Assembly: GCA_036004685.1 (NCBI GenBank)
Contig: DASYRE010000006.1
Location: forward strand, 1 to 64,000
DNA length: 64,000 nucleotides
Direction: 5' to 3'
DNA from: Candidatus Polarisedimenticolia bacterium
Lineage (GTDB): Bacteria > Acidobacteriota > Polarisedimenticolia > Gp22-AA2 > AA152
The notes beneath the pieces were generated by a model, which made no database searches, had not been told where the DNA came from, and saw only the letters and a program-made list of their open reading frames with translations. Position numbers and translations under genes: made by a program. Positions within the stretch are counted from its first letter, which is position 1. Each line of letters opens with the position of its first letter. Shown here in pieces: positions 24 to 56,861 of the stretch.

Positions 24-710
24 CTAGGCGATGCGCCCCTTCTGCGCCTGGCCCGCCGAGAGCTCGCGGCGGAAGACGTCGCGGAGGCGGCGGTAGTCGT
101 CGGGGGTATTCATGTCCTCCACCACCCCCGGGTTGGGGACCTCCACGTGGACGATCCCTCCCAGCTCGAGCGCGTCCCGGGCGGTCCGGCCCTGAGGGAG
201 GTCGAGGAAGACATCGCGCATCTTTGCGCGACAGAGTACGGGGTGGCCGCGGCGCTCCTTGTAGGTGGGGATGAACACCCTCTCCGGTCCGCTGTGCGCG
301 CGGTGCGCCAAGACCAGAGCGGCGAAGTCCAACTTCGTCACCAGCGGATAGTCGACCGGCTGGAAGAGGAACGCCTCCAAGTGCTCCTTCTCCAGCGACC
401 GCAATCCGATCTTCAGGGACTCGATCTGCTCGCTCTCCGGCGCCCGGTTGATGACCCAGGAGAAATCCACCCCGATGCCGGCGAAGGTGTGCGCCGCCCG
501 GATCTCCTCCGCACGGTGGCCGATCACCACCACCACCCGGCCCAGGCCCGCCGCCGCTGCGTTGCGCACCGCCAGTTCCAGGGCGGTCCAATTGCCGAAG
601 CGCAGGAGCGCCTTCGGCTCTCCCATCCGCGTGGAACGCCCCGCGGACAAAATGATCAGGGCCAATGAACTATCAACGACCGGGGGGTTCAGGGCATTCT
701 CCTCCCCCAC
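24..710 (-). CDS. MobA/MocA-like nucleotidyltransferase
   Basis: NTP-transferase of the MobA-like fold, similar to the CTP:molybdopterin cytidylyltransferase (MocA) and sugar-nucleotidyltransferase families. Near the N-terminus is the nucleotide-binding signature IILSAGRSTRMGEPKALL, followed by a VVVVIGHRAEEI strand and a PVDYPLV motif where the family places metal-binding Asp. It is probably soluble and cytoplasmic. The start is unsure: the frame is open far upstream into the helicase gene. I give the GTG at 710, which overlaps the dinG-like stop (673) by about 38 bases; a TTG at 665, right before the signature, is equally possible. No Shine-Dalgarno is visible for either. The true substrate cannot be told, because no molybdoenzyme genes are nearby. 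Confidence 0.8.
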   Translation of the reverse strand: MGEENALNPPVVDSSLALIILSAGRSTRMGEPKALLRFGNWTALELAVRNAAAAGLGRVVVVIGHRAEEIRAAHTFAGIGVDFSWVINRAPESEQIESLKIGLRSLEKEHLEAFLFQPVDYPLVTKLDFAALVLAHRAHSGPERVFIPTYKERRGHPVLCRAKMRDVFLDLPQGRTARDALELGGIVHVEVPNPGVVEDMNTPDDYRRLRDVFRRELSAGQAQKGRIA

Positions 711-3297
711 GCATTGTACGCTGCGGAGCCCCCGGGCTGAAGAACTCTCCCAGCGACTGCAGCACCTTCCCGGTGCTGCCCCGCAGGAAGCGGGTGGGCG
801 GCAGAGAGCGGAGGAAGGTGCGGCCATAGGGTTTGGTGATGATCCGGCGGTCGAGCACCACCACCACTCCGCGGTCCGAGGCGGACCGGATCAGGCGCCC
901 GAACCCCTGCTTGAACTTCAGCACCGCCTGCGGCACGGTGAAGGAGGCGAAGGGATCCGAACCGCGCTGGCGCAAATCCTCGGCGCGGGCCAACTGCAGC
1001 GGTTCGGAGGGGACGCGGAAGGGCAGGCGGGTGATGATCACGCAGGAGAGCGCCTCGCCCTTCACGTCCACACCTTCCCAGAAGCTGTCGGTGCCGAAGA
1101 GCGCGCGCGGCGGCCCCTCGCGGAAGCGATCGAGGAGCTCGGTCCGGCCGCTCTCGCCCTGGCACAGCGCTCCGATGCCCGCGGAGGCCAGGGGCCCGCG
1201 CAGCGACTCGCAGGTGCGCCGGAGGAGGCCGTAGGCGGTGAAGAGCACGAAGGCCCGGCCGCGGCTCCGCAAGAGCACCTCCAGCACGGTCCCCCTCACC
1301 GCCTCCTCGTAACCTCCCGAGCCGGGATCGGGGAAGTCGTCGGGCACCAGGGTCAGGACCTGCCGCGGGTAGTCGAAGGGCGAGGGGAACTCTCCGAAGC
1401 GGAACCGCTCCTCCTCGATCTGATCGAGGCCCAGCCGCTCGCCCAGGTAGTTCACGCTCCCCTCCACCGACAGGGTCGCGCTGGTCATGACCACCGTCCG
1501 CACCGGGTCGTAGACCGCCGACTTGAGGTCGTCCGCCACGCGGATGGGCGCGCTGGCGAAGGTCACCGCCCGACTGCGTGGATCGCCGCGCCGCCCCCGC
1601 ACCTCCACCCAGCGCACCTGGCCCTTCTCCTCCGTGCTGCGAAAGAACTCCAGGTCTGTCCGCACTTTCGCCAGCCGGTCGCGAAGCGACGTCGGCTCGA
1701 AGAGGAGGGCCTTGCGGCGCTCTTCCGTTAGCGAGGAGGCGTTCTCCAGAGCGCCGACGACCCGCTCGGCCTCCTTGACGACGATGCCGATCTCCTCGCT
1801 CACGGCACGCAGGCGCTCGTCGATCGCATCCCGGAAAGCCGCCTGGGCGGGGGCATCGGTGAGGCGGATCTTCAGGTCCTCCTCCTGGGGATCCCTGACG
1901 GTCCCGTACTCCACGTCCTTGCGGCCGCGAGAAGCCTCTTCCTGCGCCAGCGCCAGCGCAGAACCAAGCTCTGCGTCGACCCGCGCGGCGATGTCCGGCA
2001 GGTCCGCGAGGAGGCCGCGCTCGAGCCTCTCCGCCGCCACCGGAACGCCTTCGCGGCGCAGGGTCTTCGCCAGGTGCGGCAGGACGCCCTTCTTCCGGTC
2101 GCGGGGGGAGACCAGGCGGCTGAAGCGGCTCTTGAACCCGAGCTGCGAGATGCGGACCCCCAGGTACTGGGAAGCGACGTCCTCCAGGTGGTGAGCCTCG
2201 TCGAAGATCACCCGCTCGTAGCCCGGCACCACCAGGTCGATCTGGTAGTTGCCGATGACCCGGCGCACCGCAAGATCGGCGAAGAAGAGGTGGTGGTTGA
2301 CGACCACGATGTCCGCCTTGAAGGCCGCGCGCTTCGCCTGGTAGTAAAAGCATTCTCCGTAGAACGGGCAGAGCACCTTGAGGGACTTGTCGGTCTCGGA
2401 CATGGCCTTTTCCCACACCCGGTCCGGCGGCGGAGCCCCCAGCTCGGCCAGGCTCCCCTCGCTCGCGGTCTTGGCCCAGGCGATCAGGTCCCGGAGTTGC
2501 CGGACCTCGTCCTCCTTCTCGACGAGGTCTCCGACCCCTTCCTTCTCGATCTCGGCCAGCTTCCGCTTGCAGGCGTAGTTGCCCCGGCCCTTGATCAGCG
2601 CGTACTTGAACTTCACCTTCAGCGTTCGCTCGAGGAACGGCAGGTCCTTGCCGATGAGCTGCTCCTGGAGGTTGATGGTGTTGGTGGAGACGATCACCCG
2701 AGAGCGGTTCTGCACGGCCCAAAGGATCGACGGGACCAGATAGCCGAAGCTCTTCCCGACGCCGGTGCCCGCTTCGAGCGCCACCACCCGGTTCCCGTTG
2801 AGCGCCTCGGCCACCTCCCGCGCCATGGCCACCTGCCCCGCGCGCGCCTCGTAGTCCTTGAGCGCCCCGGCCAGGGGGCCGCCGCGGCCGAAGACCGCCT
2901 CCACCTCCGCCGGGTCGACGGGCTGCGGTCCCGGGGGTCCCTTCCGGAAGGGGGACACCACCAGGTAATGCCGCTCGGCGCGGTTGTCGATGATGGCGAA
3001 GCCGACCTCGCGGTTCGCCAGCTCATGGGCGACCGCGAAGTCGGCCTCCGAGGGCTCGAGGCGGCCGCTGGGATGGTTGTGGATGGCCAGGTCCCACTCC
3101 TCCGCCCGCCGGATGATGGCCGGGACCGCGCTCCGATTGCCCCGCGCCGCCACGTCCACTTCCGCCACCCGGGCCGTGGTTTCATCGTCCCAGGCGAGCC
3201 GCGCCAGGAAGAAGACCTCGTTCCCTCCCGCCTGGTCGATGGCGGCGGCCAGGCTCTCCCGGACGGGAGGCGGGATCACGAGGCGGATGTCGGCCAT
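673..3297 (-). CDS. DinG/XPD-family helicase with N-terminal JAB (JAMM) domain
   Basis: 874-residue superfamily-2 helicase. Residues ~1-120 form a JAB/MPN-type domain: E27, then HNHPSG with H73 and H75, S83 and D86, which matches the JAMM zinc-site pattern seen in RadC. The rest is a DinG-like helicase: Walker A AGTGVGKS (176-183), DEAH box at 366-369, QEQL/NTINL motif Ia, and a C-terminal helicase half with FWEGVDVKG and an arginine-finger region QGFGRLIR. DinG/XPD proteins carry a 4Fe-4S cluster on four cysteines. Here only C243, C310 and C315 are visible in the expected region. It probably unwinds 5'-tailed DNA or R-loops in repair. It starts at ATG 3297 and diverges from the SDR gene. Confidence 0.93.
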   Translation of the reverse strand: MADIRLVIPPPVRESLAAAIDQAGGNEVFFLARLAWDDETTARVAEVDVAARGNRSAVPAIIRRAEEWDLAIHNHPSGRLEPSEADFAVAHELANREVGFAIIDNRAERHYLVVSPFRKGPPGPQPVDPAEVEAVFGRGGPLAGALKDYEARAGQVAMAREVAEALNGNRVVALEAGTGVGKSFGYLVPSILWAVQNRSRVIVSTNTINLQEQLIGKDLPFLERTLKVKFKYALIKGRGNYACKRKLAEIEKEGVGDLVEKEDEVRQLRDLIAWAKTASEGSLAELGAPPPDRVWEKAMSETDKSLKVLCPFYGECFYYQAKRAAFKADIVVVNHHLFFADLAVRRVIGNYQIDLVVPGYERVIFDEAHHLEDVASQYLGVRISQLGFKSRFSRLVSPRDRKKGVLPHLAKTLRREGVPVAAERLERGLLADLPDIAARVDAELGSALALAQEEASRGRKDVEYGTVRDPQEEDLKIRLTDAPAQAAFRDAIDERLRAVSEEIGIVVKEAERVVGALENASSLTEERRKALLFEPTSLRDRLAKVRTDLEFFRSTEEKGQVRWVEVRGRRGDPRSRAVTFASAPIRVADDLKSAVYDPVRTVVMTSATLSVEGSVNYLGERLGLDQIEEERFRFGEFPSPFDYPRQVLTLVPDDFPDPGSGGYEEAVRGTVLEVLLRSRGRAFVLFTAYGLLRRTCESLRGPLASAGIGALCQGESGRTELLDRFREGPPRALFGTDSFWEGVDVKGEALSCVIITRLPFRVPSEPLQLARAEDLRQRGSDPFASFTVPQAVLKFKQGFGRLIRSASDRGVVVVLDRRIITKPYGRTFLRSLPPTRFLRGSTGKVLQSLGEFFSPGAPQRTMRGGGECPEPPGR

Positions 3298-17455: not shown

Positions 17456-18160
17456 TCAGCGGGGGCGGGGGAAAATCGTGATCGACTTGATAAAGCCCTC
17501 TCCTTCACTGCGGGTCTCGAGGGCCGGATCGTCCTTGAGGGCCAGATGGACGAGGCGCCGGTCGTAGGGGTTCATGGGACTCAAGGTTTGCGGCTCTCCG
17601 AGCTTTTTCACCTTTTCAGCCGTCAGGTGGGCTATCTCGGCGAGCTCTTCCTCGCGCCCTTTTCGAAAGTCGCCGCAATCGAGGAAGATGGCGCGGGTCG
17701 ACCCGGCATGGGCGGCGATGCGGCCGAGAAGGACCTGAAGAGCGTTGAGCCCCTCCCCGCGGCGCGCCAGGAAGAGGTCACAGTCCTTTCCCTGCAGCTC
17801 GATCCTTATCTGGTCCTGATCCTCAACGACCTGGAAATCGACCTCGAACGGCGAGTCGCGCACGAATCTCTCGAGAAATCGATTGATCCGTGCGAGGTCG
17901 GATTCCCCGGTATTCTCACCTCCCTCTCCCCCGCTTCCCTCTCTGTCCGCCACCTTCCCCGTTTCCGGCAAGGCAACCCGGATTCGTACGCCGCGCGTGC
18001 CGACGCCGAGAAATCCACGCCGTCCTTCCTGCAGTACTTCGTAATCGAGATTCTCGCGCGGGATGCCGAGCGAGGCGCTGGCGTGTGAGAGAGCCTGCTC
18101 CAGGTCTTCCCCCTCGAACTCCTCGCGTCCTTCGCTCTCGGGATCGGTATGGTCATCCAC
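17456..18160 (-). CDS. jag: Jag/KhpB RNA-binding protein
   Basis: 234 residues from GTG 18160, which overlaps the yidC stop by 8 bases and so indicates coupling. An N-terminal Jag_N module has LEQALSHASASLGIPRENLDYEVLQEG and RGFLGVG, followed by an acidic linker, a KH domain (~85-165) and a C-terminal R3H domain containing RRLVHLALKDDP and ETRSEGEG. Jag proteins bind RNA and influence cell elongation and membrane-protein biogenesis; pairing with yidC is conserved widely. Confidence 0.93.
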   Translation of the reverse strand: MDDHTDPESEGREEFEGEDLEQALSHASASLGIPRENLDYEVLQEGRRGFLGVGTRGVRIRVALPETGKVADREGSGGEGGENTGESDLARINRFLERFVRDSPFEVDFQVVEDQDQIRIELQGKDCDLFLARRGEGLNALQVLLGRIAAHAGSTRAIFLDCGDFRKGREEELAEIAHLTAEKVKKLGEPQTLSPMNPYDRRLVHLALKDDPALETRSEGEGFIKSITIFPRPR

Positions 18161-19868
18161 GGGCAGGCACTTTCTTGGCGGAGATCTCCCGCTCCACTTG
18201 GGCATTGATCAGGTACTGCTGTCCGATGGCCAGAATGTTATTGACGAGCCAGTATAGCACCAGCCCGCTGGGCAGGTCCTTGAAGAACCAGGTGAACATG
18301 ACCGGCATGAGCATCATGATCCGGCGCTGCGCGGCATCCGGGATGGCGCTTCCCGTCATCACTTGCTGGATAAGCATCGTGATCCCCATGACGATCGGGG
18401 TCACATAATACGGGTCCTTCTTGGACAGATCGGTGATCCAGAAGAGGAACGGGGCGTGCCGGAGCTCGATGGCGCTGTTCAGGAGATTGTAGAAACCCCA
18501 GAGGATCGGAAGCTGCAGCAGGAGCGGCAGACATCCCGTCATCCCGGCGACGGGGTTGACCCCCTCCTTGCTGTAGAGAGCCATCATCTCCTCGTTCATT
18601 TTCTGCCGGCTGCCGACGTCCTTCTTCATCTTGCGGTAACGATCCTTGATCGCCTGCAGCCGCGGCTGGATCTTCTTCATCTTCTCCTGCGTGTGACGCA
18701 TCGACACCGAGGCCTTCTGGGTCAGGGGAAAGAAGGCCAGCCTGATGAAGAAGGTGAGAAGGATGATCGACCATCCCCAGTTCCCCGTGTAGCGGTTGAT
18801 GTGCTGAAGCAGGAAGAAGAGGGCGTGAGCGATCGATCCGAAAAAGCCGAAGTCGACGATTCCCTCGATCCCGAGCTTCAGGCTGGCGAGGAGATTGTAG
18901 TCCTTGGGGCCTACGAACAGGCTCAGCTGGCCGTCCGGCGGAAGTGCGAGACCGAGCGAAAGAAAGTTCTTCTCCCGCCCCTCTTCGAGAATCTGGTGGG
19001 CCCGGACCACGGTGCCCGCCGCGCCTCCCTCGGGGATGAGGATTCCGGCGAAGTAATGATCCTCCAGTCCCGCCCATAGCACGCCTCCCGGCTGCGCCAG
19101 GACCGGTTTCCCTTTCAAGGACTCGCGGGGAAGGCGAACGATGGCTCCGTCCCGTCGAACGACCGCTCGCACGACCTCCGCGCGGTTATGGCTGTTCGAG
19201 GCCAGGCCCTCGTCGGGACCCAGCCCCGCGCCCCAGATGAGGTAGCCTTCCAGCGGAGCCCCGTTGCGCCGGGCGTGGATTTCGAGGCGGACGACGTAGG
19301 AATCCTGGACGAACCGAAGGGTCTTCGTGACGTCGATTCCGGCCCCGTCCGAGTAGTGGAGGGCGACGCGCGTCTCCGCGGCCGTTTCTCCGGGCCCCGT
19401 GTCCATCTCGAACAAGGCGGAGCCGAGCTTTTCGGTGAGCTGGGAGTCGGCGAACTCGAGCCCCAGGGGGAAGCGCTTCACCTTGGCGGAGCCTGGACTC
19501 ACCAGATCCAGTGGCTTCCTCTGATCGTCCGAGTAGCTCTTGAGCTGCCATGCCGTGATCACCGCGCCTTGATTGCTCACTCGGACACGGTACAGAGCCG
19601 TCTCGATCGTTTTCTCCTCAGGCCGCGCCGCTTCCGCGCGCGCCACGATGGGCGACGAGGACGGGGAGGGAGGGGGCGCGCCGGGGCTCGTGTCGGGGGG
19701 AGCGACCGGAGTCGCGGGTGAGGTCTCCGATGGGACCGCCGGGGCTTTCGACGCGGTGACCGGACCGGCCGGAGGCCGGGGCGGCGCGGGAGGGAAGAGG
19801 TAGACGTTCCAGAGGACGATCACTCCAAGAGAGAGCGCGGAGGCGAGAAGCAGTCGTTTGAAGTCCAT
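18153..19868 (-). CDS. yidC: membrane protein insertase YidC
   Basis: 571 residues, Gram-negative-type long form. It has an N-terminal membrane helix (RLLLASALSLGVIVLWNVYLF), a Pro/Ser/Ala-rich linker (~30-75), a large periplasmic beta-super-sandwich domain (~85-340) and a C-terminal Oxa1-type core of five helices with NWGWSIILLTFFIRLAFFPLT. The core includes the hydrophilic-groove Arg region and the HTQEKMKKIQPRLQAIKDRY coiled coil. It inserts and folds inner-membrane proteins with or without SecYEG. Its gene lies 21 bases after yidD. Confidence 0.97.
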   Translation of the reverse strand: MDFKRLLLASALSLGVIVLWNVYLFPPAPPRPPAGPVTASKAPAVPSETSPATPVAPPDTSPGAPPPSPSSSPIVARAEAARPEEKTIETALYRVRVSNQGAVITAWQLKSYSDDQRKPLDLVSPGSAKVKRFPLGLEFADSQLTEKLGSALFEMDTGPGETAAETRVALHYSDGAGIDVTKTLRFVQDSYVVRLEIHARRNGAPLEGYLIWGAGLGPDEGLASNSHNRAEVVRAVVRRDGAIVRLPRESLKGKPVLAQPGGVLWAGLEDHYFAGILIPEGGAAGTVVRAHQILEEGREKNFLSLGLALPPDGQLSLFVGPKDYNLLASLKLGIEGIVDFGFFGSIAHALFFLLQHINRYTGNWGWSIILLTFFIRLAFFPLTQKASVSMRHTQEKMKKIQPRLQAIKDRYRKMKKDVGSRQKMNEEMMALYSKEGVNPVAGMTGCLPLLLQLPILWGFYNLLNSAIELRHAPFLFWITDLSKKDPYYVTPIVMGITMLIQQVMTGSAIPDAAQRRIMMLMPVMFTWFFKDLPSGLVLYWLVNNILAIGQQYLINAQVEREISAKKVPARG

Positions 19869-21052: not shown

Positions 21053-21150
21053 CTTGTTGAGAACTTCCGAAGACCCCGCGCTAGGTCGAGTGATGACAAC
21101 ATCTTCCCCAGTGTTTATCCCGTAACCAGTCCCGCGTAGGGTGGAAAGCC

Positions 21151-22476
21151 ATGAAACTCTGGGAACAGGTACTGGAAAGAGTCGAGCCGAAGGTCAACAG
21201 CCAGAGCTTCGACACGTGGTTGAAACCGACTCTGCAAGTCTCGCTCACGGACGGGACCTTGGAGGTCGAAGTCCCGAACGTCGTCTTCGCCGAATGGATC
21301 AGCAGCCATTTCCTTCCGGTCATCCGTGAAACGATCAGCGAGATCCGCCCGGGGGATCTCGCTATCCTGTTCAAGGCCCGCCAGGAGGCGAGCGAGCCGC
21401 CGCCGGCCCCCGCCGAGCGTTTCCTGCGCCGCCGGCCCCCCTCCGCGGCCCCCGCCGGCGCGTCGGGTCTGACTCTCCGGTACACTTTCGACAACTTCGT
21501 CGTGAGCTCCTCGAACCAGTTCGCGCACGCCGCCGCCAAGGCCATCGCCGAGCAGCCATCCATGAACTACAACCCGCTTTACATCTATGGCGGCGTCGGC
21601 CTCGGAAAGACCCACCTCATGCACGCGGTCGGAAATCACCTGGCGAAGCACCGTCCCGAGCTGCGGCAACGATACCTTTCGACCGAGAACTTCATGAATG
21701 AACTCATCAATGCGATCCGCTTCGAGAAGACCCTGGACTTCAAGGAAAAGTATCGGAACATCGATCTTCTGTTGATCGACGACATCCAGTTCCTGGCGGG
21801 CAAGGAAAGGACCCAAGAGGAGTTCTTTCACACCTTCAACGCGCTGTACGAGTCGCAGAAACAGATCGTGATCACGTCCGACTGCCCTCCGCGCCAGATT
21901 CCGACGCTCGAAGAGCGCCTGCGCTCCCGTTTCGAGTGGGGGCTCATGGCCGACATCCAGCCGCCGGACCTGGAGACGAAGATCGCCATTCTCCGCAAGA
22001 AAGCGGAGGCCGAAAGGGTCGAGCTGCCCCAGGACGTCGCGTTCTTCATCTCCAGCAAGATCAAGTCGAACATCCGCGAGCTCGAGGGATCCCTCGTGCG
22101 CCTCGTCGCTTTCTCCTCCCTGACGGGCCGGCGCATCGATCTGGAAATGGCCAAGGAGACCCTCAAGGACCTTCTCGAGGACAAGAATCGCGGCGTGACG
22201 GCGGAAGCGATCCAGAAGCTCGTCGCGAACTACTTCAAGATCAAGCCGGCGGACCTCAAGTCGAAGAACAACGCCCACTCCATCTCCTTTCCGCGGCAGG
22301 TGGCGATGTATCTGTGCAAGCAGCTCACCGACAGCTCCTTGCCCGCCATCGGCCAGATCTTCGGAGGAAAGCACCATTCGACGGTGATTCACGCGATCCG
22401 GAAGATCAACGCCCGGCGCGAGACCGACAAGGATTTCGACAGGCTCCTCAAGAGCTTCATGGAATCGTTCGAATGA
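21151..22476 (+). CDS. dnaA: chromosomal replication initiator DnaA
   Basis: 441 residues. Domain I (MKLWEQVLERVEPKVNSQSFDTWLKP), a Pro-rich linker (~80-105), then the AAA+ domain with Walker A GGVGLGKT (~147-154), Walker B LLLIDDIQFLAGKERTQEEFF and sensor/arginine finger in LEERLRSRFEWGL. Domain IV has the DNA-binding signature GGKHHSTVIHAIRKI. It unwinds oriC as an ATP filament. GGTGGAAAG precedes the ATG. Entirely typical. Confidence 0.98.
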   Translation: MKLWEQVLERVEPKVNSQSFDTWLKPTLQVSLTDGTLEVEVPNVVFAEWISSHFLPVIRETISEIRPGDLAILFKARQEASEPPPAPAERFLRRRPPSAAPAGASGLTLRYTFDNFVVSSSNQFAHAAAKAIAEQPSMNYNPLYIYGGVGLGKTHLMHAVGNHLAKHRPELRQRYLSTENFMNELINAIRFEKTLDFKEKYRNIDLLLIDDIQFLAGKERTQEEFFHTFNALYESQKQIVITSDCPPRQIPTLEERLRSRFEWGLMADIQPPDLETKIAILRKKAEAERVELPQDVAFFISSKIKSNIRELEGSLVRLVAFSSLTGRRIDLEMAKETLKDLLEDKNRGVTAEAIQKLVANYFKIKPADLKSKNNAHSISFPRQVAMYLCKQLTDSSLPAIGQIFGGKHHSTVIHAIRKINARRETDKDFDRLLKSFMESFE

Positions 22477-22668
22477 GTTCGAGCGCATTGTGCGAAAGCG
22501 GCGGAGAATTTCCTGTTGAAAACCGCGAAGCCGGAAGGACTCCGGGAAATCCTCAGGTTTGGATCGGTTCTTCCACAGGCTGCCCCCCGGCCGCGGCCGG
22601 CCCAAGCCTCTTGGAGCATGCGAGATCCGAAGATCGGAGCGCCGTGCACAGGCACTACAAGAACTACT

Positions 22669-22693
22669 GGTTTTGTGATATATCAAGAAAACC
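22669..22693. promoter_or_regulatory. 25-base near-palindrome upstream of dnaN
   Basis: GGTTTT-g-TGATATATCA-ag-AAAACC: a perfect 10-base central palindrome flanked by inverted GGTTTT/AAAACC arms, ending 14 bases before the dnaN ATG. It could be an operator or a hairpin in the leader. The rest of the 231-base dnaA-dnaN gap shows only a weak DnaA-box-like TTCTTCCACA. Confidence 0.55.
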
Positions 22694-22707
22694 TTTGAGG
22701 AGCAGCC

Positions 22708-23817
22708 ATGGAGTTCACGGTCCGGCGGGAGGATCTTTTGAAAGAGCTCCAGCGCCTGCAGGGCGTCGTGGAGAAGAAGAACACCATTCCGATCCTCTCC
22801 AACACGTTCCTTTCGGCGAATAAGGACGAGCTCGAGCTGGTCGCCACGGATCTGGAGCTGGGAATCCGCACGTCCACGCGGGCGAAGGTCTCCGCGCCCG
22901 GGGCGATCACGCTTTCCTCGAAGAAGATCTTCGAAATCGTCCGGCTCCTGCCCGAGGACGACGTCAAGTTCCGGGTCGAGGACAACCACTGGGTGCAGCT
23001 CACCTGCGCGCGTTCCAGGTTCCGAATCGTCGGCATGCCGAAGGACGAGTTCCCCTCCCTCCCTTCCTACGACTTCACCCGCGCCGTGCCGATCGATTTG
23101 AAGACGCTCAAGGCGATGGTGGGCAAGGTCCTGTTCGCCACGACCTCCGACGACACCCGTTATCCGCTCCAGGGAATCCTCGTCCTCCTCGGTCCGGAGG
23201 GCCTGACCCTGGTGGCGACCGACGGCCACCGGCTCGCCTGCATCAAGGGGAAGGCGGCCCGGAAGCCCGTCGAAAAGGAGATCCGCGTCATCGTGCCGAG
23301 AAAGACGCTGGCGGAGATCTCCCGCATCGACTGGGAAGGCGCGGAGGAGATCCTCTTCGGGGTCCACGAGAATCGCGCCTTTTGGAGGACCGATCGGGTC
23401 ACCCTGGCCTCGAACACCGTCGAGGGGGTTTTCCCGGCTTATGAGAAGGTCATTCCCAAGGAGAACGACAAGATTCTCGAGCTGAACGTGCAGCATTTCA
23501 CCGACGCGGTGCGAAGAGTGTCTCTGCTTTCCAACGAACGATCCCGGGCCGTCAAGATCGCGCTCCAGCCCGGGAGGATCGAAATCTCCTCGAGCAACCC
23601 GGAGATGGGGGAAGCCCGCGAAAACATCGAAGTCGGATACCGCGGCGCGGAGATGGAGATCGGGTTCAACGCCCGGTACCTTCTCGATTTCCTCGGCGCC
23701 GTGGGCGACGAAAAGATTTCGCTGCATCTGAAGGACGAGCAGACGCAGGGCATGATGACTCCTCTGACGGCCCCGGAATGGGACTACCGCTACGTCGTCA
23801 TGCCGATGCGAATCTGA
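22708..23817 (+). CDS. dnaN: DNA polymerase III beta sliding clamp
   Basis: 369 residues, three DnaN domains in a row. Starts MEFTVRREDLLKELQRLQGVVEKKNTIPIL, has the middle-domain DTRYPLQGILVLLG and GHRLA, and ends with WDYRYVVMPMRI, the C-terminal strand near the protein-binding cleft. It encircles DNA and tethers polymerase III. GAGGAG lies upstream of the ATG. recF, often next, is not in this window. Confidence 0.98.
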   Translation: MEFTVRREDLLKELQRLQGVVEKKNTIPILSNTFLSANKDELELVATDLELGIRTSTRAKVSAPGAITLSSKKIFEIVRLLPEDDVKFRVEDNHWVQLTCARSRFRIVGMPKDEFPSLPSYDFTRAVPIDLKTLKAMVGKVLFATTSDDTRYPLQGILVLLGPEGLTLVATDGHRLACIKGKAARKPVEKEIRVIVPRKTLAEISRIDWEGAEEILFGVHENRAFWRTDRVTLASNTVEGVFPAYEKVIPKENDKILELNVQHFTDAVRRVSLLSNERSRAVKIALQPGRIEISSSNPEMGEARENIEVGYRGAEMEIGFNARYLLDFLGAVGDEKISLHLKDEQTQGMMTPLTAPEWDYRYVVMPMRI

Positions 23818-23850
23818 AGCGGGGCCGCTGTTTTCCTCGTTTTTCCCTCC

Positions 23851-23879
23851 TTGTGGCATCCTTCTGCGTGTGTTAAAAT
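23851..23879 (+). promoter_or_regulatory. promoter upstream of gyrB
   Basis: TTGTGG (23851-23856), 17-base spacer, TAAAAT (23874-23879) with TGT before the -10 (extended -10). Predicted start ~23886, leaving a ~270-base leader to the chosen gyrB start. Confidence 0.55.
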
Positions 23880-24096: not shown

Positions 24097-26565
<2,469 letters not shown>

Positions 26566-26570
26566 TCCCC

Positions 26571-29015
26571 ATGGACGACACCACCACCCAGTCCCCCGAC
26601 GAGAAGATCCCGGTCAATATCGAGGACGAGATGCGCAGGTCCTACCTGGACTATGCCATGTCGGTCATCATCGGCCGGGCCCTGCCCGACGTCCGGGACG
26701 GCTTCAAGCCGGTGCATCGACGGGCCCTCTACGCGATGCACGAGCTCAAGAACGACCACGACAAGCCCTACAAGAAATCGGCCCGTATCGTGGGGGACGT
26801 CATCGGCAAGTTCCACCCGCACGGCGAAGCGGCGGTCTACGACACGATCGTCCGGATGGCGCAGGAGTTCTCGCTGCGGTATCCGCTCGTCGACGGGCAG
26901 GGGAACTTCGGATCGGTGGACGGCGATCCGCCGGCCGCGATGCGCTACACCGAGATCCGGATGGCGAAGCTCGCCCACGAGATGCTGGCGGACATCGAGA
27001 AGAACACTGTCGATCTCGGGCCGAATTACGACGCCTCGCTCACCGAGCCACTGGTCCTGCCGAGCCGCTTCCCGAACCTTCTGGTGAACGGGTCCTCCGG
27101 AATCGCCGTCGGCATGGCCACGAACATCCCGCCTCACAATCTGACCGAGGTCAGCGACGCCGTCATCGCGACGATCAAGAATCCGGAGATCACCATCGAC
27201 GAGCTCATGCAGATGATTCCCGGCCCCGATTTTCCGACCGCCGGATTCATCTGCGGCCGCGAGGGGATCCGCCAAGCCTACAAGACGGGCCGGGGGATCC
27301 TGCAGATGCGGGCCCGGGCGAACATCGAGGAGGGCCGCGGGGGCAAGACCCGCATCGTCGTCACCGAGATTCCCTATCAGGTCAACAAGGCGAGGCTGGT
27401 CGAGCAGATCGCGACCCTCGTCACCGATAAGAGGATCGAGGGGATCGCCGACATCCGGGACGAGTCGAACCGCGAAGGGATTCGAGTCGTCCTCGATCTC
27501 AAGCGCGGGGAGATCGCCGACGTCATCCTGAACAACCTGTTCAAGTACACGCAGATGCAGGAGACTTTCGGAGTGATCTTCCTGGCGATCGTGCACAACC
27601 AGCCGCGCGTCCTGAACCTCCGCGAGCTGATCGATCACTTCATCGAGCACCGTCACGAGGTCATCGTCCGGAGGACCCGGTTCGATCTGGAGCGGGCCGA
27701 GGAGAGGGCCCACATCCTCGAGGGACTCAAGATCGCCCTCGATCATCTCGACGAGATGATCGCCCTGATCCGGGCGGCCAAGACGCCGGGCGAGGCCAAA
27801 GAAGCGATGCGGCTTCGCTTCAAGCTCTCCGACGTGCAGGCCCAGGCGATTCTCGATCTGCGGCTGCAGAAGCTCACCGGCCTGGAGCGTCAGAAGGTCC
27901 TCGACGAGTACGCCGAGACCCTGAAGCTCATTGCCCGCCTGAAGGAGATCCTGGGGAACGATCGGCTGGTCAAGGAGCTGATCATCGAGGAGCTCCAGGA
28001 GATTCGGAAGACCTTCGGAGACGGCCGGAGAACCCAGATCATCGATCGGGTCGACGAAATCTCGGTCGAGGAGCTCATCGCCGAGGAGGAGATGGTGGTG
28101 ACCCTCACCCACTCGGGGTACATCAAGCGAAGCCCGCTGGTCGTGTACCGTTCCCAGCAGCGCGGCGGCAAGGGGCGGATCGGCATGACCGTCCGGGACG
28201 AAGACTTCGTCGAGCACCTTTTCATCGCCTCAACCCACGACTATTTCCTGATTTTCACGAACAAGGGGCGGGTGCACTGGCTGAAGGTCCACGAGATCCC
28301 CCAGATCGGCGTCGCGGCCAAGGGCAAGGCCCTGGTCAACTTCATCGGAATGTCGGAAGGGGAGAAGATGGCGGCGCTCATCGCCACGAAGAACTTCCCC
28401 GACGACCGCTACGTAGTGCTGACGACCACGCGGGGGACGGTGAAGAAGACCGCCCTGTCGGCCTTCTCCCATCCCCGCTCCGGCGGAATCATCGCCCTGT
28501 CGATCGACGAGGGGGACTCGCTCCTGGACGCCAAGATCACCGACGGCAAGGCGGATCTCTTCCTGGCCAGCAACCACGGGAAGGCGATCCGCTTCCCGGA
28601 GACGGAAGTCCGCCCCATGGGCCGCGGCGCGTACGGCGTCCGCGGGATGTTGCTCCGGGAAGGGGACTTCCTGGTGGAGATGGACGCCATCCGCGGAGTC
28701 GGGTACGTCTTGACGGTGACCGAGAAGGGCCTGGGAAAGCGGACCCCGGTCAGCGAATACCGGGTCCAGGGACGGGGCGGCATGGGAATCATCAACATCC
28801 GGACGATTCCCAAGGGAGGCAGCGTCATCGCCGTGAGCGTCGTGACCGACGACGACCAGATCATGGTGGTGACGCAATTCGGGATGATGATTCGGATGGC
28901 GGTGAGCGGCATCAGCGTCCATGGGCGGGACACTCAGGGAGTGCGCATCATCCACCTGGACGAGGGCGATTCCGTCGTGGCCGTCGCCAAGGTGGTGGAA
29001 AAGGAAGCGGAATAG
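26571..29015 (+). CDS. gyrA: DNA gyrase subunit A
   Basis: 814 residues. N-terminal breakage-reunion domain with [24 protein letters not shown] and the catalytic tyrosine Y126 in [10 protein letters not shown]; the coiled coil is followed by a six-bladed C-terminal domain containing the gyrase-specific box [10 protein letters not shown] (~525), which distinguishes it from ParC. In the quinolone region, [10 protein letters not shown], the residue matching E. coli Ser83 is Ala and Asp82 is Glu. No separate ribosome-binding site: coupled to gyrB. Confidence 0.98.
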
Positions 29016-53223: not shown

Positions 53224-53332
53224 GCCGGCGGGAAGGCGGCCGGCGGTGAGCCGCCGTCCGCGGCGCATCCTGTTTCAGATCAAGACGTTGGCGTTCTTCC
53301 CAGGCCCGAAAGGACTCCGGCCGGTTGCCCCT

Positions 53333-54031
53333 TCAGTGGACCATCTGGGCGGTGCGCTCCCAGCGGGTCCGGGTGAAACCGGTCGACAGGGAATGCCAGA
53401 AGGAGGCGAGAGGCCCGGAGGGAGCGGAGCTGCCGGAGGAAGGCTCGGGAGGGCGCACCGACCAGTAGACCAGAAGGGCTCTTCCCCGGATGTACTCCGC
53501 CGGCACGCACCCCCAGTCGCGGCTGTCGCGGCTGTCGTCGCGGTTGTCCCCCATGACGAAATAACAATTCTCCGCAATGGGGATGGGACCCAGGTTGTTC
53601 AGCCCTTCCGGGTCGGGCCCGGAAGGGGAGTCGATGAAGCGCACGAAGCTCCTCTCCTCGGGGAGGGAGGAGAAGTCGTCGGCGTTCGACTTCTTGATCT
53701 TGGTTTGGCCGTTTTCGATCTTGAGCGTTTCCCCGGGCAGTCCGATGACGCGCTTGACGTAATCCCTTTCCGGCTGGCCGGGGAACTTGAAGATGACGAC
53801 GTCGTAACGGGCGATGTCTCGGAAGGGGAGGAGCTCCCTCTCGGCCAGGCTCAGGGTGGGGCCATAGGCGAACTTGTTCACCAGGATGTGGTCGCCCACC
53901 AGGATGCTCTTGACCATCGACGGAGAAGGGATCTGGAACGCCTGGACGAGGAAGGTGCGCACGAACAGAGCCACGATCACCGCGACGATCGCGGCCTGCA
54001 GGTAGTCGTGCACGAAAGAGCGGCGCCCCAC
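53333..54031 (-). CDS. lepB: signal peptidase I
   Basis: 232 residues. One N-terminal membrane helix (YLQAAIVAVIVALFVRTFLVQAF), catalytic serine in QIPSPSMVKSI (box B), box D with catalytic lysine in DYVKRVIGLPGE, box E FVMGDNRDDSRDSR. Cleaves Sec/Tat signal peptides on the outer face of the inner membrane. Starts 3 bases after lepA. Confidence 0.96.
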   Translation of the reverse strand: MGRRSFVHDYLQAAIVAVIVALFVRTFLVQAFQIPSPSMVKSILVGDHILVNKFAYGPTLSLAERELLPFRDIARYDVVIFKFPGQPERDYVKRVIGLPGETLKIENGQTKIKKSNADDFSSLPEERSFVRFIDSPSGPDPEGLNNLGPIPIAENCYFVMGDNRDDSRDSRDWGCVPAEYIRGRALLVYWSVRPPEPSSGSSAPSGPLASFWHSLSTGFTRTRWERTAQMVH

Positions 54032-54034
54032 TCC

Positions 54035-55831
54035 TCACTCCAGCTTCAGCAGGGCCAGGAAGGCCTCCTGCGGTATGTCCACCCGGCCGATCTTCTTCAT
54101 CCGCTTCTTGCCCTCTTTCTGCTTCTCCAGGAGCTTGCGCTTCCGGGTGATGTCTCCGCCGTAGCACTTGGCGAGCACGTTCTTGCGCATGGCCGCCACC
54201 GTCTCGCGGGCGATGATCTTGCTGCCGATCGCCGCCTGGATCGCGACCTCGAAGAGCTGGCGTGGAATCACTTCGCGCAGCTTGGCCGCCAGCGCGCGCC
54301 CGCGCGGGTAGGCCCGCTCCTTGTGGACGATGAGCGAAAGCGCGTCCACCGGGTCGCCGTTCACCAGGATGTCGAGCTTCACGAGATCGGCCTCCTGCCA
54401 GCCCGCGAGATGATAATCCAGGGAAGCGTAGCCGCGGGACATCGTCTTCAGCTTGTCGTAGAAGTCCATCACCACCTCGTTCAGGGGAAGATCGTACGAG
54501 ATCAGGACGCGCGTGGTGGTGACGTACTTGAGGTCTTTCTGGACGCCCCGGCGCTCCTGGCAGAGGGCCAGGATAGCGCCGACGTAGTCGGGGGGGGTGA
54601 GAATCAGCGCGGTGAGGACGGGCTCGTCGTAACGGATGATGCGCGAGGCGGCCGGGAGCTTGGCGGGGTTGCTCACCTCGACCACCTGTCCGTCGGTCGT
54701 GGTGATCCGGTAGCGCACCGACGGGGCGGTGGTGATCAGATCGAGCCCGAAGTGACGCTCCAGCCGCTGCTGCACGATCTCCATGTGCAGCAGGCCCAGG
54801 AAACCGCAGCGGAACCCGAACCCGAGCGCGTCGGAGGTCTCCGCCTCGACCGAAAAAGAGGAGTCGTTGAGCCGCAGGCGATCCAGGGCGTCCCGCAGGT
54901 TCTCGTAGGTCGTCTCGCCGTTCGGGTAGATTCCGGCGAAGACCATGGGCTTCATCTCCTGGAACCCCGGAAACGCCTCCTCGGTCGGGCGGTTGGCGTC
55001 CGTGAGCGTGTCGCCGATCTTGGTCTCCCAGGCGTTCTTGATCCCGGCGATTACGAATCCGACCTCCCCGACCGAAAGCTCCTCGGTCGGCTTCAGCTTG
55101 GGCGTGAAGACCCCCACTTCCTCCACCTCGTAATCCTTGCCCGTGGCCATGAGCCGGACCTTCATCTTGCGGCGGATCGTCCCGTCCAGCATCCGCACGA
55201 GGATGATGACGCCGCGGAACGAGTCGTACCACGAGTCGAAGATGAGGGCCTTCAGCGGCTTCTCCGCCGAGCCCTTGGGGGCGGGCAGCCTGGCCACCAG
55301 CGCCTCGAGTATCTCGCGCACTCCGGTCCCTTCCTTGGCCGAGGCCAGGATCGCGCCGCTGCAATCCAGCCCGATGATGTTCTCGATCTGCTCCTTCACC
55401 CGCTCCGGCTCGGCGCTGGGAAGATCGATCTTGTTGATGACCGGAATGATCTCCAGGTTGTGCTCGGAGGCCAGGTGGGTGTTCGCCAGCGTCTGCGCCT
55501 CGACCCCCTGGGAGGCGTCGACGATCAGCAGCGCCCCTTCGCAGGCGGAGATGCTGCGGGAAACCTCGTAGGAGAAATCGACGTGACCCGGAGTGTCGAT
55601 GAGGTTCAGGCGGTAGGCGTTGCCGTCTTCCGAGCGGTAGTCGAGGGCCACGGCGTGCGCCTTGATGGTGATGCCGCGCTCCCGCTCCAGATCCATGTCG
55701 TCGAGCACCTGAGCCTCCATCTCCCGCTTCTCGAGCGCGCCGGTGATCTCGAGAATCCGATCGGCGAGCGTCGATTTCCCGTGATCGATGTGGGCGATGA
55801 TACAGAAGTTCCGGATGCGGCTCGGATCCAT
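54035..55831 (-). CDS. lepA: elongation factor 4 (LepA)
   Basis: 598 residues, standard. G domain: [16 protein letters not shown] (G1), [10 protein letters not shown] (G2), [12 protein letters not shown] (G3), NKIDLP (G4). Then EF-G-like domains and the unique C-terminal domain ending [17 protein letters not shown]. GTPase that acts on ribosomes. Operon mtnA-tsaD-lepA-lepB. Confidence 0.98.
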
Positions 55832-55841
55832 CGTTCCCGCC

Positions 55842-56861
55842 CTACAAGGAGAGGTTCGGCTCGGCGTTCAGCGTCAGATCGGAGCGTTCGCCCCGCAGGA
55901 TCTGCCGGCGTCCGACCGCGGCGATCATCGCCGCGTTGTCGAGCGCCAGGGACGGGCTCACCGCATGGAAGCACCACTTCTCCCGGGAGGCAATCTCCGC
56001 CAGACGCTCCCGGAGCAGGCTGTTGCAGGCGACGCCGCCGGCGAGGCACACCGTGGGCACTCTCTCCCGCGCCGCGGTCCGGACCGTGTTCTCCACGAGA
56101 TAATCGACCGCCGTCTTCTGGAACGACGCCAGGAGGTCCTTCACTTCCGGACCCGGCTCCGGCGCCGGAAAGGAATGCTCCGGAAGCCCCTGTTCCCGCA
56201 CGTAGCGCAGGACGGCGCTCTTGAGACCGGAGAAGGAAAAGTCGAGAGTGCCGTCGGTCATCCGCGGCCGGCTGAAGCGGACCGCCTCCGGATTTCCGCC
56301 CCGGGCGAGGCGATCGATCACCGGGCCCCCCGGATATCCCAGCCCCATCAGCTTGGCCACTTTGTCGAAAGCCTCGCCGGCGGCATCGTCGCGCGTGCGC
56401 GCCAGGCCGGTGCACGCGCCGCTCCGATCGAGCCGATACAGGGCGGTATGGCCGCCGGAGGCCACGAGACACAAGGCGGGGAGCGGGAGATCGGGCTTCT
56501 CGAGGAAAGGGGACTGCACGTGCCCCTCGAGATGGTTCACGCCGGTGAAGGGAATGCCGCGCACGAAGGCGACCGCTTTGGCGACCGAGATTCCGACCAG
56601 GAGCGATCCGACGAGGCCTGGCCCGCGCGTGACGGCCACCCCGTCCATCTGCGCCAAATCCACGGCCGCCGCCCGCAACGCCAGATGGAGGACGGTGTCG
56701 ATGTTCTCGACGTGGTGGCGGGAAGCCAGCTCCGGGACCACCCCGCCGTATTTCTGGTGCACCTTGACCTGCGACGCGACGACGTTGGAGAGGATGGTGT
56801 CGTCGCTCAGCACCGCGGCGGCCGTCTCGTCGCAGGAGGTCTCGATGCCCAGAATGAGCAT
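55842..56861 (-). CDS. tsaD: tRNA N6-adenosine threonylcarbamoyltransferase
   Basis: 339 residues. N-terminal [17 protein letters not shown], metal-binding H110 and H114 in [48 protein letters not shown] and [11 protein letters not shown] with the third ligand Asp. Transfers threonylcarbamoyl to A37 of ANN-decoding tRNAs. Its ATG overlaps the mtnA stop by one base; the frame is open far upstream, but that is mtnA's shadow. Confidence 0.97.

Follow-up and report, generated by a model that had tools for sequence, protein, structure and literature searches.

The open reading frame at 673-3297 of the window, the whole 64,000-nucleotide stretch of DNA that was analysed, almost certainly encodes a RadC-like DinG, a protein in which a RadC-type JAB domain stands ahead of a DinG/YoaA-type helicase. 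The metal-site residues E27, H73, H75, S83 and D86 are all located within HNHPSGRLEPSEAD. An earlier note on this DNA, made from the sequence alone, had guessed that JAB-helicase fusions may already be catalogued, and this is the case: published work already covers the architecture as well as the metalloprotease-like fold and the idea of a nuclease (PMC11981726, PMC5512222; these two papers, PMC300881 and PMC10175854 are all cited from excerpts). Therefore, the window protein is a new, Planctomycetota-type member of the known RadC-like DinG. In the excerpts of Cheng 2025 (PMC11981726), RadC-like DinG is listed as a DinG subgroup on which 'no research has been conducted', and the absence of HolC from the organism is listed among its traits. 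The gene's own addition is the Planctomycetota-type member together with a CSCC variant of the Fe-S motif, and no new principle is involved. The features are collected in Table 1.

Table 1. Features of the RadC-like DinG gene and its downstream neighbour, in window positions.
Feature	Position	Strand	Basis
RadC-like DinG gene, 874 aa from ATG	673..3297	(-)	ORF and family matches
RadC-type JAB/JAMM domain, residues 1-118	2944..3297	(-)	PF04002 on isolated domain; AlphaFold2, fold searches
JAMM Glu27	3217..3219	(-)	68/68 homologues
JAMM H73-N74-H75 ... S83-x-x-D86	3040..3081	(-)	68/68 homologues and 10/10 further phylum matches listed
DinG/YoaA-type SF2 helicase, residues 143-853	739..2871	(-)	NCBIfam YoaA/DinG, Pfam PF13307/PF06733, Foldseek to 6fwr
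Walker A GTGVGKS, residues 177-183	2749..2769	(-)	
DEAH box, residues 366-369	2191..2202	(-)	
Fe-S region, residues 243-316: C243, S305, C310, C316	2350..2571	(-)	
Ser305, Cys in most homologues	2383-2385	(-)	
MobA-like NTP transferase, start codon provisional	24..709	(-)	Directly downstream, overlaps helicase gene end

The N-terminal domain is recognised as RadC-type by sequence as well as by fold. The Pfam RadC family PF04002 (cut-off 22.1) matches the isolated domain with an E-value of 2.8e-5 and 24.5 bits, and the whole protein of 874 aa with 20.8 bits, and the cut-offs of the NCBIfam RadC models are not reached (NF000642, 21.6 bits versus 180; TIGR00608, 16.2 versus 133.85). With a profile of 67 homologous JAB domains, the PDB search gave RadC 2qlc an E-value of 3e-8 and AfJAMM, only distantly similar, one of 0.2. 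The structure prediction proposed in the earlier note returned the JAB fold: the AlphaFold2 model of the domain is a confident MPN/JAB fold (mean pLDDT 92.2, pTM 0.86), and that of the whole protein has a pLDDT of 89.4 and a pTM of 0.84. RadC 2qlc is also the top PDB match of the domain in Foldseek (E 4.9e-6). In VIA-align, BubCD came first (Z 10.7, rmsd 2.8 over 113 residues), followed by Rpn11 (Z 10.4, rmsd 2.7 over 110 residues); RadC 2qlc is outside the best 50 matches listed, which is not taken as a fold difference. The match of the JAB domain is not a chance one.

The complete JAMM set with a RadC-like HNH is present as the earlier note described it. Among 110 helicase loci, 68 have an N-terminal HxHP and 42 do not, and two of these 42 (L087 and L096) begin at a contig end. 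E27, H73, N74, H75, P76, S83 and D86 are invariant in all 68 homologues; the rows were chosen by H[N/S/T/G]HP, so that E27, N74, S83 and D86 are the free tests. Because the HxHP criterion itself selects the histidines, a control was added in which the seven motif columns of the profile were masked. The masked profile scored 97 to 175 on JAB-DinG frames (89 frames, duplicates included), and DinG frames that lack HNHP went unmatched among the loci then collected; thus, a degenerate JAB domain was observed on no DinG, and the conservation of HxHP-S-D, which the earlier note had named as a check, held. The JAMM motif has been described as E-xn-H-S/T-H-x7-S-x-x-D (PMC300881), and this pattern fits at every position except S/T, where Asn74 is found in 68/68 homologues. 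Residue 105 is Asn in 67/68.

We infer that the site holds one catalytic metal, probably zinc, via H73, H75 and D86. Zinc was modelled in the RadC-like DinG site by Cheng 2025, where DALI gave metalloproteases and zero nucleases (PMC11981726, in excerpt). The label 'metalloprotease-like' of the earlier note is right for the JAB fold and the JAMM residues, but between its histidines the domain has the Asn of RadC (HNH) where known JAMM peptidases carry Ser or Thr (HS/TH), and 'metalloprotease' is a less secure term for this reason. It has also to be considered that the JAB domain could be a regulatory or binding module (a nucleotide sensor, a protein docking site or a structural element) with a metal site that is not catalytic, and the excerpted text indeed reports no activity for RadC-like DinG (PMC11981726). 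This is improbable, since E27, S83 and D86 were unselected yet are invariant in 68/68 homologues and would be unneeded by a non-catalytic site.

The fusion partner is a helicase of the DinG/YoaA type, as the earlier note had it. It scores 585.9 bits with the NCBIfam YoaA model NF053712 (cut-off 680) and 480.5 bits with the DinG model, also under the equivalog cut-off, and is matched in Pfam by Helicase_C_2 (E 4e-42) and DEAD_2 (E 9e-6). The top Foldseek match for the whole protein is E. coli DinG 6fwr, with an E-value of 6e-39 for the helicase part. Walker A, the DEAH box and motif VI (around R801) are intact, and SAT is found at 606-608. No N-terminal DnaQ-type exonuclease was matched in Pfam, and the TIGR01407 match begins at profile position 243.

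The helicase had been called intact in the earlier note, which holds for Walker A and DEAH but passes over the Fe-S region, where one of the four cysteines is Ser305. The usual DinG Fe-S motif consists of four cysteines; variants in a single residue, for example CCHC and CCCS, are on record, and three cysteines are still counted as cluster-competent (PMC11981726, in excerpt). L031 and L032, the two closest relatives, share C-S-C-C at 243/305/310/316 with the window protein. Four cysteines were counted in 55/67 rows and three in 12/67. Other losses of a single cysteine are S-C-C-C in L066, C-C-C-S in L154 and L156, and C-C-G-C in six same-order non-JAB proteins. Four lineages of the set are each missing a different single Fe-S cysteine.

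The taxonomic survey suggested in the earlier note shows a widely conserved architecture. A profile search found the fused domain in 11 of the 396 sampled genomes of the window's phylum, in seven family codes (E about 1e-34 or better, at least 120 bits), and it is present in several other phyla. Of the 48 phylum genomes with any match, the other 37 show nothing beyond weak RadC-like ones, and after the 11 the best score drops to 44 bits. With the whole protein as query, no match at E 0.001 came from the three further genomes that share the window's family; of eight genomes sharing its order, six encode a DinG that lacks the JAB domain. Among loci from named genomes (the best 80 of 569), 67 carry the fused form; as these are the best of 569, prevalence is not measurable from them. 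The titles of the fused forms in these best 80 loci include Planctomycetota, Desulfuromonadales/Geobacteraceae, Sumerlaeota, Auribacterota, Fusobacteriota, Spirochaetota, Bacillota and others, and L031 and L032, the two nearest homologues of the window protein, carry planctomycete titles. RadC-type JAB domains are found in 38/41 genomes here and are widespread in bacteria, and a canonical RadC is encoded separately on contig C10 of the window genome.

The helicase tree consisted of 67 rows, with 76 JAB rows thinned at 66% identity to 29 plus the window. Left out were L001 (the window under another id), L087 and L096 (contig-end start, with the N-terminal domain missing from view), the partial L024, L026 and L105, L152 (broken frame) and L111-L129 (RadC loci or shorter duplicates). 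All 30 JAB rows are on one side of a single branch with a support of 40%, which takes 1 change versus a shuffle mean of about 22, and the window is placed beside L031 and L032 with a support of 100%. The pairwise identities of JAB domain and helicase correlate with r 0.94 over 2278 pairs, and with r 0.49 in the 1531 pairs below 55% helicase identity; the two domains diverge together. A single origin of the fusion is possible and fits the helicase tree. With the JAB rows on one side at 40% support, the domains may have been joined once, with the gene transferred or lost afterwards. In L152 (G209:C12, 4186-6655), the JAB-DinG frame is broken between the helicase halves, through decay or an assembly error.

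Upstream of the RadC-like DinG gene and divergent from it lies a short-chain dehydrogenase gene. A MobA-like gene, 39% identical to the one downstream in the window, also follows the homologue in L032, the one locus with which the window-clade neighbourhood was compared, as the L031 gene sits at a contig end. In the Geobacter group, the recurrent neighbours are what we take, by eye, to be a histidine kinase and a membrane protein, and in the Fusobacteria presumably a housekeeping run of the YbeY/DgkA type, also labelled by eye. Across the other loci, no partner gene recurs beyond single lineages and no repair operon was found, and by eye no recurrent E1, E2 or ubiquitin-like gene was recognised in the 22 largest neighbour families. 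Elsewhere in the window, gyrB adjoins gyrA at 24100-29015, and yidC lies at 18153-19868 on the opposite strand. Two long ORFs without a Pfam family at E 0.001, at 21115-23859 (-) with 914 aa and at 53246-56224 (+) with 992 aa, are candidate genes.

It is highly improbable that the RadC-like DinG gene is part of a mobile or defence element. The distribution is patchy (the 11/396 phylum genomes), type IV CRISPR makes use of DinG-type helicases, and PADLOC type IV DinG models match the helicase part; against this, the JAB domain was unmatched in 72,556 plasmid and 50,697 phage records, loci on viral contigs gave RadC-like scores only (best 40.6 bits, with 80 of at least 89 confirmed loci profiled), gyrB, gyrA, yidC and ATP synthase genes are in the window, and the G+C content is steady at 69% over the first 6 kb. 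A mobile-element origin was dropped, with the plasmid and phage searches empty and the viral matches listed only RadC-like.

For the mode of action, the reading preferred here, at a probability of roughly 0.45, is an ssDNA translocase with an N-terminal metal-dependent domain that processes nucleic acid. The ATP-driven motor, a predicted translocase or helicase of the DinG/YoaA/XPD type, would expose or move ssDNA. At the JAB active site, a metal on H73, H75 and D86, completed by E27 and S83, would then serve to process a phosphodiester, a 3' or 5' end or a modified nucleotide. The JAB domain would fill the N-terminal slot of the DnaQ-like exonuclease or PD-(D/E)XK nuclease in other DinG subgroups, and RadC-like DinG may have a role in repair. 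Nucleic-acid processing was chosen because nucleases take the same slot in the family and because the domain is RadC-like in both motif and sequence; the N-terminal domains of ExoDinG and EndoDinG are an exonuclease and a nuclease (PMC11981726), and Iyer et al. 2017 made the same positional argument (PMC5512222). Motif and fold, HNH in 68/68, the co-divergence of the domains, the single-branch tree and the lack of a recurrent E1/E2/ubiquitin-like neighbour were counted for nucleic-acid processing. Counted against it were that literature searches found no published report of nuclease activity of any RadC-type domain, that the DALI matches in the excerpts of Cheng 2025 are metalloproteases, without a nuclease among them, that BubCD and Rpn11 come first in VIA-align, that neighbourhoods are lineage-specific and without a repair operon, and that the JAB branch has a support of 40%.

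Part of the same evidence could be read in terms of protein as substrate. The JAB domain would then be a metalloprotease acting in cis: the motor would meet a protein crosslinked or tightly bound on ssDNA and remodel it, and the JAB domain would cut it. Those JAB domains whose biochemistry has been characterised are peptidases (PMC5512222), as are the closest solved folds in VIA-align, and E27 and S83 are invariant. There is also a precedent in eukaryotes, where the 5'-to-3' helicase FANCJ unfolds an adduct that the separate protease SPRTN then degrades (PMC10175854), and FANCJ is named as a eukaryotic homologue of DinG-like proteins (PMC11981726). However, the motif is the HNH of RadC and not HS/TH, PF14464 gives the isolated domain 14.9, under its cut-off of 25, RadC-type domains are argued by Iyer et al. 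to be without the ubiquitin-tail groove (PMC5512222, in excerpt), and no ubiquitin-like partner was recognised in the recurrent neighbours. Cleavage in cis is rather unlikely on these grounds, and the analogy drawn from it, by which RadC-like DinG would be a one-polypeptide bacterial FANCJ plus SPRTN, an XPD-family translocase that remodels DNA-trapped proteins and feeds its own JAMM-type metalloprotease, is doubtful. The sequence and the computations made here do not separate nucleic-acid processing from proteolysis, and they speak neither for nor against the earlier note's suggestion that a protein or nucleotide adduct on the DNA is processed. The fixed link to a helicase limits the substrate of the JAB domain to something met on DNA, and RadC-like DinG is therefore a good place to learn the target of this domain.

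Among the closest known systems, the RadC-like DinG of Cheng 2025 shares the N-terminal RadC-like domain, the YoaA-like helicase and the conserved E, H, H and D; its Fe-S motif is CCCC, whereas that of the window protein is CSCC, with three cysteines under a criterion of four or three, and Planctomycetota are absent from the main text in the excerpts. RadC (PF04002; 2qlc) has the same JAB fold and E...HNHPSG...PSxxD but no helicase, and its PRE and DH-I/V motifs, as defined from 11 RadC sequences, are missing from the window domain (DN at 104-105, with Asn105 for His). E. coli YoaA/DinG (6fwr) shares the SF2 XPD-like helicase and the Fe-S region, without an N-terminal JAB domain and with Cys where the window protein has Ser as its second Fe-S residue. 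The JAMM/MPN+ peptidases (Rpn11, AfJAMM and BubCD) share the fold and the E, H, H, S and D of the metal site, but the window protein has Asn between the histidines and distant sequence similarity only. In ExoDinG and EndoDinG, an enzyme domain also stands ahead of the same helicase, a DEDDh exonuclease or a PD-(D/E)XK nuclease where the window protein has the JAB domain.
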